Positions 40,778 through 50,587 of a stretch of DNA of 64,000 nucleotides are shown piece after piece. The position numbers and the translations under genes were made by a program. This DNA is from Oleomonas cavernae (lineage in GTDB: Bacteria > Pseudomonadota > Alphaproteobacteria > Zavarziniales > Zavarziniaceae): contig NZ_QYUK01000011.1 of the NCBI RefSeq assembly GCF_003590945.1, positions 4,124,909-4,188,908 on the forward strand. The letters are read 5' to 3'. Under the pieces are notes generated by a model that saw only the letters and a program-made list of their open reading frames with translations, did not search any database and was not told where the DNA came from. How positions within the stretch are numbered: the first letter of the stretch is position 1; the number at the start of each line of letters is the position of its first letter.

Positions 40778-40793
40778 TGTTTCACGTGAAACA
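40778..40793. promoter_or_regulatory. parS: parS site 1 (perfect)
   Basis: TGTTTCACGTGAAACA, 16/16 to the bacterial parS consensus and fully palindromic. It begins at the first base after the mnmE TGA. ParB encoded at 44.3 kb should bind it and spread. Confidence 0.96.
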
Positions 40794-40943: not shown

Positions 40944-40959
40944 TGTTTCACGTGAAACG
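40944..40959. promoter_or_regulatory. parS: parS site 2 (15/16)
   Basis: TGTTTCACGTGAAACG differs from consensus only at the last base. It lies 68 bases upstream of the mnmG start. Confidence 0.9.
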
Positions 40960-42901: not shown

Positions 42902-43528
42902 ATGCGCTTGCCCCGTGCCATGACCCGCGAGGACTTCGCGGCTGCCACCGGTGTTTCACGTGAAACACTGGACAGGCTCACCGCCTATGCCGATCTCCTG
43001 GCCAAGTGGCAGGCCAAGATCAACCTGGTCGGCCCGGCCACGCTGCCGGATCTCTGGCGTCGCCACATGCTGGACTCGGCGCAACTCGCCACCCTGATCG
43101 AACCGGCCAAGCCGCGGCGCTGGGTCGACTTGGGCTCTGGCGCCGGTTTTCCCGGCCTGGTCCTGGGCATCCTGGGGGTGGGGGAGGTCCATCTGGTCGA
43201 GAGCGATCAGCGCAAGTGCGCCTTCCTGCGCGAGGCCGCCCGAATCACCGGCGCCGAGGTCAAGATCCACGCCTTGCGGATCGAGACCCTGGCGCCGTTG
43301 GAAGCGGACGTGATTACCGCCCGGGCCCTTGCCCCGCTGGAAAAACTGCTCGATTGGGCGGCACCGCACAGAACTGCCCACACTATTCACCTTATCCCCA
43401 AGGGTAAGGAGGCAGAGGCTGAATTGACCCAGGCCGCTCGGCGCTACACACTGGACGTCAAACGGCACGAGAGTCGAACCGATAACTCGGCCACCATCTT
43501 CCAGATCAGAGTGACCGACCATGACTGA
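42902..43528 (+). CDS. rsmG: 16S rRNA (guanine527-N7)-methyltransferase
   Basis: RsmG methylates G527 of 16S rRNA. The 208-residue protein contains NLVGPATLPDLWRRHMLDSA and the SAM-binding WVDLGSGAGFPGLVLGIL. ITARALAPLEKLLDWA and LIPKGKEAEAEL follow. Three bases follow the mnmG stop, and the gene overlaps parA by 8 bp. A perfect parS lies inside its 5' coding part and is read as VSRET. Confidence 0.95.
   Translation: MRLPRAMTREDFAAATGVSRETLDRLTAYADLLAKWQAKINLVGPATLPDLWRRHMLDSAQLATLIEPAKPRRWVDLGSGAGFPGLVLGILGVGEVHLVESDQRKCAFLREAARITGAEVKIHALRIETLAPLEADVITARALAPLEKLLDWAAPHRTAHTIHLIPKGKEAEAELTQAARRYTLDVKRHESRTDNSATIFQIRVTDHD
42952..42967. promoter_or_regulatory. parS: parS site 3 (perfect, inside rsmG)
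   Basis: TGTTTCACGTGAAACA again, 16/16, within codons 17-22 of rsmG. The encoded residues VSRET are therefore constrained by both protein and ParB binding. Confidence 0.95.
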
Positions 43529-44327
43529 CGCCGCCGAGGCCGGGGTGCGTATCATCGCCGTCGCCAACCAGAAAGGTGGCGTCGGCAAGACCACCACCGC
43601 CATCAACCTGGGAACGGCCTTGGCCGCCGTGGGGCGCCGGGTGATGATCCTGGACCTCGACCCCCAGGGCAACGCCTCCACCGGGCTGGGGATCGAGCGC
43701 GCCAATCGCGCCGTCACCAGCTATGAAGCCCTGATGGGCGAGGCGACCCTGGCCGAAGCCCTGGTCGACACGGCGATTCCCAACCTGTCCCTGGTGCCCT
43801 CCACCATCGACCTGTCGGGTGCCGAGCTCGAACTGGTCGACCAGCCCCGCCGCGCGCACCGCCTGAAGGAAGCCCTGTCGGCGCCCGCCATTGTCGACAA
43901 CTTCGACTATGTCCTGATCGATTGCCCGCCGTCCCTGAACCTGCTGACCCTGAATTCCATGGTCGCCGCCCATTCGGTGCTGGTGCCGCTGCAATGCGAA
44001 TTCTTCGCCCTGGAAGGCCTCAGCCTGCTGTTGCGGACCATCGACCAGGTGCGCGAGAGCTTCAACCCTGCGCTGGAAATCCAGGGCATCGTGCTCACCA
44101 TGTACGACGCCCGCAACAACCTGTCGGACCAGGTCGCGGCCGACGTCCGCGGCTTCTTAGGGACGAAGGTCTATGACACGGTGATCCCGCGCAACGTGCG
44201 CATCTCGGAAGCGCCATCCCATGGCCAGCCGGCCCTGATCTATGATCACCGTTGTGCCGGCAGCCAGGCCTATATCAAGCTGGCCAGCGAATTGCTGCGC
44301 CGTGAAGAAGCGCGCATCGCCGCCTGA
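43521..44327 (+). CDS. parA: Chromosome partitioning ATPase ParA
   Basis: Deviant Walker A ATPase of 268 residues. VANQKGGVGKTTTAINLG is the Walker A region, LDLDPQGNASTGLG the A' box, and VLIDCPPSLNLLTLNSM Walker B. It moves ParB-parS complexes in chromosome segregation. Chromosomal rather than plasmid type is indicated by the mnmG-rsmG-parA-parB order. It lacks the N-terminal helix-turn-helix of plasmid type Ia ParA. Confidence 0.95.
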   Translation: MTDAAEAGVRIIAVANQKGGVGKTTTAINLGTALAAVGRRVMILDLDPQGNASTGLGIERANRAVTSYEALMGEATLAEALVDTAIPNLSLVPSTIDLSGAELELVDQPRRAHRLKEALSAPAIVDNFDYVLIDCPPSLNLLTLNSMVAAHSVLVPLQCEFFALEGLSLLLRTIDQVRESFNPALEIQGIVLTMYDARNNLSDQVAADVRGFLGTKVYDTVIPRNVRISEAPSHGQPALIYDHRCAGSQAYIKLASELLRREEARIAA

Positions 44328-44350: not shown

Positions 44351-45262
44351 ATGGCAGACGAGGGCCGGAAGAAGGGGCTGGGGCGGGGTCTATCCGCCCT
44401 GATGGGCGAGGTCCGCGAGGCAGTTACCCCCGCGGCGGCGGCGATCGGCGAAAAGCCGCGCGGCCTGCGCGAGCTGCCGATCGAACAGGTCCAGGCCAAC
44501 CCCAACCAGCCGCGCAAGCGCTTCACCCCCGAAGCCCTGGAAGAACTGGTCGCCTCGGTCAAGACCCACGGCATCCTGCAGCCCATCCTGGTGAGGCGCC
44601 TGGGCCCTGGCGAGCGCTATGAGATCATCGCCGGTGAACGGCGCTGGCGCGCCGCCCAGGCCGCCCAGCTCCACACCGTGCCGGTGGTGGTGAAGGACTT
44701 CACCGATACCGAGGTGATGGAAGTCGCCCTGGTCGAAAACATCCAGCGCGCCGACCTGACCCCGATCGAGGAAGCCGCCGGCTATCAGCGCCTGATCGAC
44801 GAATTCGGCCAGACCCAGGATGTCATCGCCCAACTGGTGGGCAAGTCGCGCAGCCATATCGCCAACACCGTGCGCCTGCTCACCCTGCCGGCCCCGGTGC
44901 GCGACTTCGTCGACCAGGGCAGGCTCTCGGCCGGTCACGCCCGCACCCTGATCGGCCTGCCCAATGCCGTGGCCCTGGCGGCCAAGGCGGTGGAACAGGG
45001 CCTGACCGTGCGCCAGATGGAAGACCTCGCCAAGAAGGCCAAGGCCCCGGCCGCGGCCGTGCCGGGCAAGCCCGGCGCACCGGAAAAGGATCGCGACACC
45101 GTGCTGCTGGAAGGCGACCTGTCGGCCGCCGTCGGCCTGCCCGTCGCCATCGCCCACAAGGGCGAGACCGGCGGCGCGGTCACCATCCACTACCGCACTT
45201 TGGACGAACTCGACGCCCTGTGCCGCCGCCTCAGCCGCCCGGACGACTTCCCGCCGATGTGA
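44351..45262 (+). CDS. parB: Chromosome partitioning protein ParB
   Basis: A CTP-dependent parS-binding clamp of 303 residues. The CTPase/N-terminal box is in YEIIAGERRWRAAQ, preceded by NPNQPRKRF. The helix-turn-helix is QDVIAQLVGKSRSHIANTVR. The C-terminal dimerisation region ends with HYRTLDELDALCRRLSRP. Three matching parS sites lie within 4 kb upstream. Confidence 0.95.
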   Translation: MADEGRKKGLGRGLSALMGEVREAVTPAAAAIGEKPRGLRELPIEQVQANPNQPRKRFTPEALEELVASVKTHGILQPILVRRLGPGERYEIIAGERRWRAAQAAQLHTVPVVVKDFTDTEVMEVALVENIQRADLTPIEEAAGYQRLIDEFGQTQDVIAQLVGKSRSHIANTVRLLTLPAPVRDFVDQGRLSAGHARTLIGLPNAVALAAKAVEQGLTVRQMEDLAKKAKAPAAAVPGKPGAPEKDRDTVLLEGDLSAAVGLPVAIAHKGETGGAVTIHYRTLDELDALCRRLSRPDDFPPM

Positions 45263-47359: not shown

Positions 47360-48334
47360 CTACTCCGCGGGCGTCGCCAGCCTTGTCTCGACCAGCCGGG
47401 CAAGGCCCGCAATGAAGGCAGGTTCGGTACCAACCGCCGGCACCCGTATATATGCCGGCACGCCACAGGTCTCGGCCAGGTGGCGATATTCGATATCGAG
47501 CTCGACCAGGGTTTCCGAATGTTCGGACACGAAGGCGATCGGCAGCACCACCAGGGCGATGCCCTCGCTGCCGGCGCGCCTGATCTCCGCCTCGGTATAG
47601 GGCTTGATCCATTCCATCGGCCCGACCCGGCTTTGATAGGACACGACCCAGTCGAGGCCCGGCCGGCTGACCGCCCTTGCCACCGCCTCGGCCGTCTGCT
47701 GCACCTGGCGCTGATAGGGATCGCCCGCATCGATCACCTTCTGCGGCAGGCCGTGGGCGGAAAAGAGCACCCGCACCGGCGAGCGGACCTCGTCCAGCGC
47801 CTTGCCCAGCAGCAGGGCCTGGGCCTGGATCAGGCCCTGGTCTGTGGGATAGCTCTCGATCACCCGGGTCGGCGCCGCAATCCCGGCCTTGGCCGCGGCA
47901 AGGTGCCATTCCTGCAACGAGGATTGCGTCGTCGTGGTCGAGAACTGCGGATAAAGCGGCAGGAGGACGATATCGTCAGGCGCGAAGGCCGCCACCGCTG
48001 CTGCCGTCTCGGCCGCCCGGGGATGCCAATAGCGCATGGCAATGAAGGTCTTCACCGTGACCCCCAGACCAAGCCCCTCGATTGCCTGTTCCAGTGCGCA
48101 CGCCTGGTCCTGGGTCAGCGGCAGAATGGGCGAGCGGCCGCCGATGCGGTTATAGATCTCGATTGCCGTTTTCGTCCGCCGCCCGGCAATCAGCTTGGCC
48201 ACCAGCCAGCGCAGGGGCTGGGGCAGGCGAATGATCGCCGGATCGGAAAACAGGTTGAACAGGAACGGCTTCACCGCCGCCGCCGAATCCGGTCCGCCCA
48301 GGTTGAACAGGACGACGGCCAGCTTGCGCGTCAT
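47360..48334 (-). CDS. hemH: Ferrochelatase
   Basis: Inserts Fe(II) into protoporphyrin IX, the last step of protohaem synthesis. It has 324 residues. The N-terminus is VVLFNLGGPDSAAAVKPFL. The catalytic His is in VLFSAHGLPQKVIDAGDPY, and the Glu-rich motif is AFVSEHSETLVELDIEY. Its start overlaps the hemE stop by 4 bp. The three hem genes run away from the putative origin. Confidence 0.96.
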   Translation of the reverse strand: MTRKLAVVLFNLGGPDSAAAVKPFLFNLFSDPAIIRLPQPLRWLVAKLIAGRRTKTAIEIYNRIGGRSPILPLTQDQACALEQAIEGLGLGVTVKTFIAMRYWHPRAAETAAAVAAFAPDDIVLLPLYPQFSTTTTQSSLQEWHLAAAKAGIAAPTRVIESYPTDQGLIQAQALLLGKALDEVRSPVRVLFSAHGLPQKVIDAGDPYQRQVQQTAEAVARAVSRPGLDWVVSYQSRVGPMEWIKPYTEAEIRRAGSEGIALVVLPIAFVSEHSETLVELDIEYRHLAETCGVPAYIRVPAVGTEPAFIAGLARLVETRLATPAE

Positions 48335-49404
48335 GCACGCCAGTTCCGGATCTGCGCCGACAGGGCCGCGACATGCTCAGGCGGGGTTTCCGGCACCACG
48401 CCGTGGCCCAGGTTGAAGACGAAGCGCCCGGGCCCCAGGGTCGACAGGATCGTCTCGACCCGTGCCGCCATGGCCGCACCGCCCGCCACCAGCAGCAGCG
48501 GATCGAGGTTGCCCTGGACCACCGCCGCGGGCTGCACCGCGTCACGCGCAAAGGCCAGCGGCACGGTCGGGTCCAGGCCCACCGCCTCGACACCCGTCGC
48601 CGGCGCGAACTCGGCCAGCATCGGCCCGATCCCCTTGGCAAAGCCGATCACCGGGACATTCGGGTAGCGCTGCTTCAGCTCGGTCCTGATCCGTGCGATC
48701 GGCGCAAACACCCAGCGCTGCAATTCATCATCGGCCAGCGAACCGGCCCAGGTATCGAAGATCTGGATGACTTCCGCCCCGGCCTCGATCTGCGCCGCCA
48801 GATAGTCGATCGTCGCCGTCGTGACCAGGTCGATCAGTTGGCCGAAACCGACCGGATCGCGGTAGGCCCACAGCTTGGCCGGCTTCTGGTCGCTGGTGCC
48901 CTCACCAGCCACCATATAGGTCGCCACCGTCCAGGGCGCCCCGGCAAAGCCGATCAGGGTGACATCGCCGGGCAGTTGCCGGCTCAGCAGGCGCACGGTT
49001 TCGTAAACCGCACCGACCCGTTCATGGAAACGCTCGAAGGAGAGGGGCTTCAATCCCTCCAGGTCGGTCACCGGGTCCAGCCGGGGGCCTTCGCCTTCGA
49101 CGAAGCGCACGCCTTGGCCCAGGCCGTGAGGCACAAGCAGGATGTCGGCGAACAGGATGGCGGCATCCATGCCGAAGCGTTCGATGGGCTGCAGCGTCAC
49201 CGCACAGGCCTTCTCGGGGTCCAGGCAGAACGAGACGAAGTCGCGTGTCGTCGCCCGCACCGCCCGGTATTCCGGCAGGTAGCGCCCCGCCTGGCGCATC
49301 AGCCAGAACGGCGGTCGCACCACCGGCTCACCCTTCAGGGCGGTCAGGAACAGCTTGCTCTTGGCAGGGATCGGCGCGGGCGTTGCCGGCTTGGGCTCTG
49401 ACAA
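48331..49404 (-). CDS. hemE: Uroporphyrinogen decarboxylase
   Basis: Decarboxylates uroporphyrinogen III to coproporphyrinogen III. The 357-residue protein contains PPFWLMRQAGRYLPEYR, the signature near the N-terminus, FADILLVPHGLGQGV and GFAGAPWTVATYMVAG. The ATG at 49404 lies at the edge of an AT-rich stretch that may also hold its promoter. hemE next to the origin is a hallmark of this class (for example Caulobacter and Rickettsia). Confidence 0.96.
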   Translation of the reverse strand: MSEPKPATPAPIPAKSKLFLTALKGEPVVRPPFWLMRQAGRYLPEYRAVRATTRDFVSFCLDPEKACAVTLQPIERFGMDAAILFADILLVPHGLGQGVRFVEGEGPRLDPVTDLEGLKPLSFERFHERVGAVYETVRLLSRQLPGDVTLIGFAGAPWTVATYMVAGEGTSDQKPAKLWAYRDPVGFGQLIDLVTTATIDYLAAQIEAGAEVIQIFDTWAGSLADDELQRWVFAPIARIRTELKQRYPNVPVIGFAKGIGPMLAEFAPATGVEAVGLDPTVPLAFARDAVQPAAVVQGNLDPLLLVAGGAAMAARVETILSTLGPGRFVFNLGHGVVPETPPEHVAALSAQIRNWRA

Positions 49405-49765
49405 CTTCTATACCTTTATATAAATAGAAAAAGGTAGTGGAGGTGGTGGGTGCCTGTGGATCACGGTATTCCCCAGGGCCACCCGATCTTGTCCCCAGAA
49501 CAGCCGTTGGGCGACCGGTTGCCCCTTCAGTAGTGGTTAAAGCCGGGAGAGTCGAGGGGCGCCTTGACGCGTAGGATTGGGGATCACGGGGATAAATCTG
49601 CTAGCGTCGTCGCAAGAAGCAAGGGCTGCGTTCCTGTCCACAGGCTGGTAGAAAAAAGCCCCTCAAGGGAGCGTTACGTTGACCGAAAAGCCCATCGAAT
49701 CCGTCCTGGCCGAGGTTTTGGCGGAGTCACCCGACTTATCCCAGGAACCCCCGTTATCCACAGCG
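49405..49765. other. oriC: Putative chromosomal replication origin (oriC)
   Basis: The gap between hemE and the PPDK-regulator gene is the position of oriC in Caulobacter and relatives. An AT-rich unwinding candidate is at 49406-49432. A perfect DnaA box TTATCCACA lies at 49754-49762. Weaker boxes are TGTGGATCA (49455-49463), CTGTCCACA (49634-49642), GGGGATAAA (49588-49596) and TTATCCCAG (49736-49744). GANTC sites for CcrM-type methylation are at 49549, 49697 and 49724. The right part overlaps the annotated 5' end of the next gene. Confidence 0.75.
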
Positions 49766-50587
49766 ACGAGCGCGCGGCGGCTGCACCTCTATCTGGTCTC
49801 GGACGCGACCGGCGAAACCCTGTCTTCAGTCGCCAAGGCGGCGATGTCGCAGTTCCCCGATGTGGCCGCCCTGCTGCACGTCACCTTCATGGCGCGGACC
49901 AAGACCCAGATCGAACGCGCCCTGGACATGGCCCGGGAAAGCGGCGGCATCATCCTCTATACCCTGGTCAACGCCGGCCTGCGCCAGGCGATGGACGAAG
50001 GCGCGCTGGAACGCCATGTGCCGGTGATCAACGTGCTCGATCCGATCATCCAGAACCTGGCGACCTATCTCGGCGTGCCGGCGCGGGCGATGCCGGGGCG
50101 CCAGCATGTGCTGGATGCCGAGTATTTCCGCCGGATCGAGGCGATGAATTTCACCCTGGCCCATGACGACGGGCAGAGCTCGCCCGGCCTGTTCGAGGCC
50201 GACGTGATCCTGGTCGGCGTCTCCCGCACCTCCAAGACGCCGACCGCGGTCTATCTCGCCAATCGCGGGATCAAGACCGCCAATATCCCGGTGGTGCCGA
50301 ATTGCCCGCTGCCGGTCGAACTGTTCGAGGCGACAGGCCCGCTGGTGGTCGGCCTGACCACTTCGGCCGACCGGCTGCTGCAGATCCGCCGCCACCGCAT
50401 GCTGGTGCTGGGCCAGAGCGAGCAGACCGACTATGTCGATGTCGAGGCGATCGAGCGCGAGCTGACCGATGCCCGCCGCCTGTTCGTGAAGCACGGCTGG
50501 CCGGTCATCGATGTCTCGCGCCGCTCGATCGAGGAAACCGCCGCGGCCATCCTCAACCTCTACTACGACCGCCTCAACCTGATGTGA
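49679..50587 (+). CDS. ppsR: Pyruvate,phosphate dikinase / PEP synthase regulatory protein (DUF299)
   Basis: A bifunctional ADP-dependent kinase and phosphorylase controlling pyruvate,phosphate dikinase or PEP synthase. The conserved start LHLYLVSDATGETLSSVAKA is followed by the P-loop-like VGVSRTSKTPTAVYLANRG and QIRRHRMLVLGQSEQTDYVD. The TTG at 49679 gives 302 residues but adds about 35 residues before the conserved part, including a DnaA box. A downstream start is possible. It is the right-hand neighbour of oriC as in Caulobacter. Confidence 0.9.
   Translation: MTEKPIESVLAEVLAESPDLSQEPPLSTATSARRLHLYLVSDATGETLSSVAKAAMSQFPDVAALLHVTFMARTKTQIERALDMARESGGIILYTLVNAGLRQAMDEGALERHVPVINVLDPIIQNLATYLGVPARAMPGRQHVLDAEYFRRIEAMNFTLAHDDGQSSPGLFEADVILVGVSRTSKTPTAVYLANRGIKTANIPVVPNCPLPVELFEATGPLVVGLTTSADRLLQIRRHRMLVLGQSEQTDYVDVEAIERELTDARRLFVKHGWPVIDVSRRSIEETAAAILNLYYDRLNLM
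49754..49762 (+). promoter_or_regulatory. Perfect DnaA box
   Basis: TTATCCACA, 9/9, inside the N-terminal extension of the PPDK-regulator frame. Confidence 0.8.

Follow-up and report, generated by a model that had tools for sequence, protein, structure and literature searches.

A very probable chromosomal origin between hemE and ppsR in a Zavarzinia-genus alphaproteobacterium, with a candidate DnaA-trio-like array beside its AT-rich run

Does the gap between the divergent genes hemE and ppsR hold the chromosomal replication origin, and which of its parts might DnaA use to open it? The gap lies in a window of 64,000 nucleotides (the whole stretch analysed, C11:4124909-4188908; positions given without a contig name count from its first letter), on contig C11 of 4.374 Mb in a 5.64-Mb assembly of 29 contigs. 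The genes on either side, and the par loci nearby, are as follows.

40778 to 40793, plus strand: parS site, perfect
40944 to 40959, plus strand: parS site with one mismatch
42952 to 42967, plus strand: parS site, perfect
43521 to 44327, plus strand: parA (Pfam AAA_31, CbiA)
44351 to 45262, plus strand: parB (Pfam ParB_N, HTH_ParB, ParB_C)
48331 to 49404, minus strand: hemE, uroporphyrinogen decarboxylase (from the open reading frame list; Pfam URO-D, E = 1.2e-113)
49679 to 50587, plus strand: ppsR, PPDK regulatory protein, COG1806/DUF299 (Pfam Kinase-PPPase, E = 6.7e-91, residues 37-292)

As the sequence-only reading had proposed, the segment 49405-49770 between hemE and ppsR very probably serves as the origin of the chromosome (oriC) in this alphaproteobacterium of the genus Zavarzinia: the cluster of DnaA boxes, the conservation within the genus and the gene order agree, and GC skew speaks for the neighbourhood only. 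By their Pfam matches, hemE and the COG1806 (DUF299) gene diverge around the gap, as they do in origins of the hemE/COG1806 type. The same divergent gap was found at 105 of the 110 loci of our first set and at 88 of 100 loci from the class, with a median of 428 bp between the protein matches; the remaining 12 class loci show no hemE in the 1.5 kb covered. The class loci were located via ppsR, and the 65 of 212 genomes without a ppsR match stand outside these counts. The gap had no match when compared with plasmids. Nearby parS sites and parAB had also been cited in favour of an origin, and they are present, with two perfect parS sites and one carrying a single mismatch where 0.06 sites with up to three mismatches are expected by chance, and with parA and parB of these types according to Pfam.

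The elements of the gap are listed below; invariant columns refer to an alignment of six Zavarzinia sequences, namely the window and five relatives.

49405 to 49431, no strand assigned: AT-rich run, proposed unwinding element (83% AT in a 30-bp window; 56% of columns invariant)
49432 to 49449, plus strand: trinucleotide array AGG TAG TGG AGG TGG TGG, DnaA-trio-like by sequence, with a degenerate middle base
49450 to 49454, plus strand: short GC-rich spacer GTGCC (the five relatives read ATGCC)
49455 to 49463, minus strand: DnaA box TGATCCACA, pointing at the array and hemE (one mismatch; 7 of 9 columns invariant)
49489 to 49497, plus strand: weak DnaA box TTGTCCCCA (two mismatches; 7 of 9)
49532 to 49540, minus strand: degenerate DnaA box TTAACCACT (two mismatches; 8 of 9)
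49578 to 49586, minus strand: weak DnaA box TGATCCCCA, not conserved (two mismatches; 3 of 9)
49587 to 49595, minus strand: weak DnaA box TTATCCCCG (two mismatches; 7 of 9)
49634 to 49642, plus strand: weak DnaA box CTGTCCACA (two mismatches; 6 of 9)
49754 to 49762, plus strand: perfect DnaA box TTATCCACA, within the N-terminal extension of ppsR (exact match; 6 of 9)

Allowing up to two mismatches, we thus count seven DnaA-like 9-mers in 366 bp. For background we took 74 stretches from elsewhere on the contig (1.436 Mb, 366-bp windows in 20-bp steps); the mean there is 0.32 and the largest count five, and none of the 70,469 windows reaches seven. A box cluster of this kind is a mark of hemE/COG1806 origins. 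When at most one mismatch is allowed, two boxes are left, a number matched by 22 of the 70,469 windows, at four places. The sequence-only reading had called the density of boxes low, which is wrong for relaxed boxes. It was right about the single perfect box and about the several degenerate ones, of which there are six with one or two mismatches, and also in placing the perfect box inside coding sequence, where it falls in the ppsR reading frame ahead of the Pfam domain. The word TTATCCACA has only six exact copies in the 5.64-Mb assembly, compared with 23 for the reversed control word. We note that the highest background count, of five weak 9-mers in 366 bp, comes from AT-rich intergenic DNA at about C11 4344.4 kb.

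The boxes are also more conserved than their surroundings. Across the six sequences, invariant columns make up 44 of 63 within boxes and 56 of 245 between them (Fisher p = 6.6e-12); between boxes the figure is 34 of 170 when the intergenic part alone is taken. The box count takes in the perfect box, even though this lies within the ppsR extension that precedes the Pfam domain (residues 37-292), a variable region in which 29% of columns are invariant. The box at 49532 sits inside a longer conserved block, TTCA(G/C)TAGTGG(C/T)TAAA. This block was considered as a separate novel element and rejected, since it overlaps the degenerate box.

The AT content of the gap is 44.2%, compared with 32.2% for the window, and an AT content above that of the genome is a further feature of hemE/COG1806 origins. 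The AT-rich run that had been noticed beside the hemE start, to whose TTG start codon it adjoins, stands out on measurement: its best 30-bp window, from 49403, is 83% AT, and only 113 of 1,433,854 sampled positions on the same contig are as rich or richer. The run may contain the hemE promoter as well. GANTC sites had likewise been pointed out, and there are three, at 49549, 49697 and 49724, where 0.56 are expected per 421 bp. The alignment, judged by eye, does not keep the site at 49549 in all six species, and GANTC as a conserved origin element was set aside on this ground: the sites are present and are not kept across species. In the hemE-side gaps of many other families (for example loci L012, L096 and L106), AGAATCTT, which contains GANTC, lies beside the AT-rich run; it was not seen in the Zavarzinia gaps.

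As an origin, the locus is unremarkable among those of the hemE type and was to be expected. The more useful part is the trinucleotide array, which the sequence-only reading had overlooked. Reading from the AT-rich run, the array at 49432-49449 is followed by GTGCC and then by TGTGGATCA. In the basal unwinding system described in the available parts of PMC8287927 and PMC8235120, a DnaA-box, a short GC-rich spacer, a trinucleotide array and AT-rich DNA follow one another, and the locus resembles this system, with its DnaA-trios in Bacillus subtilis and other bacteria, in order, strand and spacing. The box with one mismatch stands 5 bp from the end of the array, where the published system has a box in the same orientation within 16 bp. 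The pattern of the array is (T/A)-(not C)-G, which has the position and orientation of DnaA-trios without their conserved middle A. Nowhere else in the 1.436 Mb sampled, both strands included, does such an array stand beside a box with one mismatch or fewer. The relatives from the genus have a shorter array, with runs of three or four, or one whose register slips. The published trio rule, as given in the accessible text of PMC8287927, calls for at least three NAN triplets. A search of 49396-49480 for these beside a box with two mismatches or fewer gave no hit, and the same combination occurs at 130 sites in the sampled 1.436 Mb. Because the NAN feature is absent on this test, we do not class the locus as a member of the DnaA-trio basal unwinding systems; the array would make it a variant of that system.

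We then asked how widely such arrays occur, using one genome per family (n = 68) and calling an array when four or more (T/A)(A/G/T)G triplets follow one another directly in the hemE-side 220 bp. Arrays are present on the predicted strand in 36 of 68 families and on the opposite strand in 5 of 68, compared with 2.3% in dinucleotide shuffles; 32 families fall below the threshold, and the ppsR side has none in any of the 68 on either strand. In second genomes from the same families the counts are 16 of 37 on the predicted strand and 1 of 37 on the opposite one; as the rule was set after similar loci had been viewed, this second set is the nearest to a fresh test, with families that are not independent. 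Runs of NAN behave differently, with 37 of 68 on the predicted strand versus 47 of 68 on the opposite (shuffles 42.6%), and 22 of 37 versus 28 of 37 in the second set. Strict NAN trios were therefore rejected, there being no enrichment over the opposite strand or the shuffles.

The middle base of the 196 triplets in 38 arrays, which were chosen by first and third base, is G in 72, A in 61, T in 61 and C in 2, and in the second set T in 34, A in 30, G in 16 and C in 1. When arrays are anchored on G alone, the counts become G 73, A 51, T 46 and C 18 in 28 arrays, and T 26, A 23, G 13 and C 8 in 11 arrays of the second set. Middle C is thus depleted, though not absent under the looser choice by G only. 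A test of 3-nt spacing that uses no motif gave z values of 14.2 for G, 3.7 for T, 2.6 for A and 0.3 for C in the first set, and 7.5, 1.0, 1.6 and 0.8, respectively, in the second. A box with at most two mismatches lies within 26 nt 3' of the array in 15 of 38 cases against 14.6% in the control, and is therefore enriched there but not general.

The cryo-EM structure of B. subtilis DnaA, as described in parts of PMC10721633, shows Arg202 and Glu228 binding the guanine of the trio and Asn187 binding its middle adenine. We aligned DnaA sequences to the B. subtilis chain 8btg. Among 84 alphaproteobacterial genomes the Asn187 position holds Tyr in 65, Phe in 12, Asn in 2, His in 2, Ser in 2 and Arg in 1, so that Tyr or Phe is found in 77 of 84, as against none of 30 genomes taken from the phylum outside this class, where the residue is Asn in 8, Ala in 7, Thr in 7, Gln in 5, Ser in 2 and Leu in 1. 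The Ala and Thr seen elsewhere indicate that Asn is not universal. The Arg202 position is Lys and the Glu228 position Glu in all 84 alphaproteobacteria; in the 30 others the former is Lys in 22, Arg in 7 and Ser in 1, and the latter is Glu in all 30. According to this alignment, protein and DNA differ at the same predicted contact point, and the guanine contact stays. It may be, with chances a little below even, that the relaxed middle base goes with the replacement of Asn187 by Tyr or Phe. Inside the class, arrays accompany an aromatic residue in 34 of 61 cases and other residues in 2 of 7 (p 0.24, not significant), and an association at that level was dropped as unsupported; the contrast between protein and DNA is one between clades. 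Stop codons were seen within long dnaA-frame matches (L292, L296 and others), and probably lie ahead of the gene, because the query began upstream of the likely start.

On these grounds we propose that the gap is an oriC whose array probably takes part in unwinding. DnaA would bind the clustered boxes, one of them perfect and several weak; starting at the hemE-directed box at 49455, a DnaA oligomer would extend onto one strand of the array at 49432-49449; and the AT-rich run adjoining hemE would then open for helicase loading. That DnaA reads the array as a single strand seems a reasonably likely part of this scheme, judging from the sequence. For the class as a whole we suggest, tentatively and at somewhat less than even chances, that origins open via DnaA-trios of a deviant code, (T/A)-(not C)-G: the guanine would be held by Lys and Glu, and the aromatic residue at the Asn187 position would take A, G or T and not C.

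The alternative that survives best accepts the origin and takes the array to be unread by DnaA, as an element of the hemE promoter or leader or a mere companion of the unwinding region. The AT-rich run directly upstream of the hemE start is where a promoter would be expected, with the array in the same upstream region; moreover, about half of the families have no run of four triplets, and the array does not follow the NAN rule. Against this, the array is confined to a single strand and to the hemE side of the gap, keeps a three-base register, and has a DnaA-box next to it, just like the array of the published basal unwinding system. Nor is it the N-terminus of hemE in the annotated frame, where an in-frame TAG stop is found at 49410-49408 on the minus strand. 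We consider this alternative unlikely, although it deserves to be kept in mind beside an array that participates in unwinding.

A further question is whether the origin lies elsewhere on the chromosome, a GC-skew minimum far from the gap having been named in advance as evidence against the locus. Computed coarsely, from the window together with 58 samples of 20 kb, the cumulative skew climbs to about 1.43 Mb and then drops to its minimum at the window, in agreement with the proposal. The finer curve (3.99-4.37 Mb) agrees less well: its lowest point, at C11 4.098 Mb, misses the gap (4.174 Mb) by 76 kb and lies within a broad trough that stays low until about 4.21 Mb. A change-point fit to fourfold-degenerate sites in 971 predicted genes is best at 4.095 Mb (rss 2531), with the gap close behind (rss 2537) and the absence of any switch worst (rss 2628). 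Bootstrap quantiles from 2.5 to 50% are all 4.09 Mb, followed by 4.19 (75%), 4.27 (90%) and 4.69 Mb (97.5%), the last of which exceeds the contig end; with the 28 other contigs, 1.27 Mb in all, unplaced, arm lengths are uncertain. The best change point is about 80 kb off and the gap fits nearly equally well, and therefore the skew supports the neighbourhood to roughly 100 kb and not the exact gap.

A strong local positive GC skew at about C11 4.095-4.110 Mb displaces the fine minimum; Rfam, searched over 4.100-4.120 Mb at the gathering threshold, gave no match. The raw minimum at 4.098 Mb was considered as the exact origin and rejected: it adjoins this locally positive stretch and was judged to be noise in the broad trough.

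The same fit bears on the possibility that replication starts in the dnaA region, as it does in many other bacteria, the hemE gap being no more than a divergent promoter under DnaA control. The dnaA gene lies on the same contig:

C11:3996207-3998216, minus strand: dnaA open frame

One of the six exact boxes, at C11:3999029, is about 0.8 kb past the 5' end of this frame. However, a switch at the dnaA locus (3.997 Mb) fits worse, with an rss of 2583 compared with that of the gap, the dnaA stretch was itself part of the background, where every window holds fewer than seven boxes, and hemE-side origins are established in Caulobacter (PMC1914354, in the sections available), all of which makes an origin at dnaA very improbable. 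The exact box at C11:3999029 may serve dnaA regulation. That boxes and array are by-products of base or coding composition is hardly credible, for although the weak boxes carry two mismatches and such words are abundant in the genome (0.32 per 366 bp), the box cluster, the conservation and the strand-specific array each stand above their controls.

The preferred reading, an oriC with an array that probably participates in unwinding, can be set beside known systems. As far as the accessible text of PMC1914354 and PMC4468827 describes them, the Cori of Caulobacter crescentus and the oriC of Rickettsia prowazekii share with our locus the divergent hemE/COG1806 gap, an AT-rich stretch and mostly weak DnaA boxes. 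It had been suggested that the layout may differ from that of Caulobacter, and it does. Cori has five CtrA sites of the form TTAA-N7-TTAA (PMC1914354, same sections), whereas the whole window has none and 49381-49800 has one TTAA half-site; our locus further differs in its one perfect box inside ppsR and in its trinucleotide array. A Caulobacter sp. locus (L129) has a run of only three triplets.

Compared with the basal unwinding system, the differences are that the middle adenine is not conserved and that the Asn187 position is mostly Tyr or Phe. In B. subtilis, cytosine substitutes well for the middle adenine, and guanine and thymine do so poorly (PMC10721633, in the parts available), which is the reverse of the alphaproteobacterial arrays. 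For some of the 15% of genomes that yielded no trios, Pelliciari et al. (2021) raised the suspicion that trios of a deviant kind, lacking the middle adenine, might be the explanation (PMC8287927, in the portion available). Among the matches listed for DnaA-trio with alphaproteobacteria, Caulobacter or five genera of the class, in main texts, there was no report of a deviant trio code in alphaproteobacteria, nor is one reported in the available parts of PMC8235120, PMC10797057 and PMC10225481; the absence of such a code from print is weakly shown.

For these origins, the NAN rule does not discriminate between the predicted strand and the other. The class-wide candidate array coincides with a change at the residue predicted to read the middle base. 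If the proposed code is true, the deviant trio suspected by the authors of the trio rule (PMC8287927, in the text available) would be spread over the whole class.
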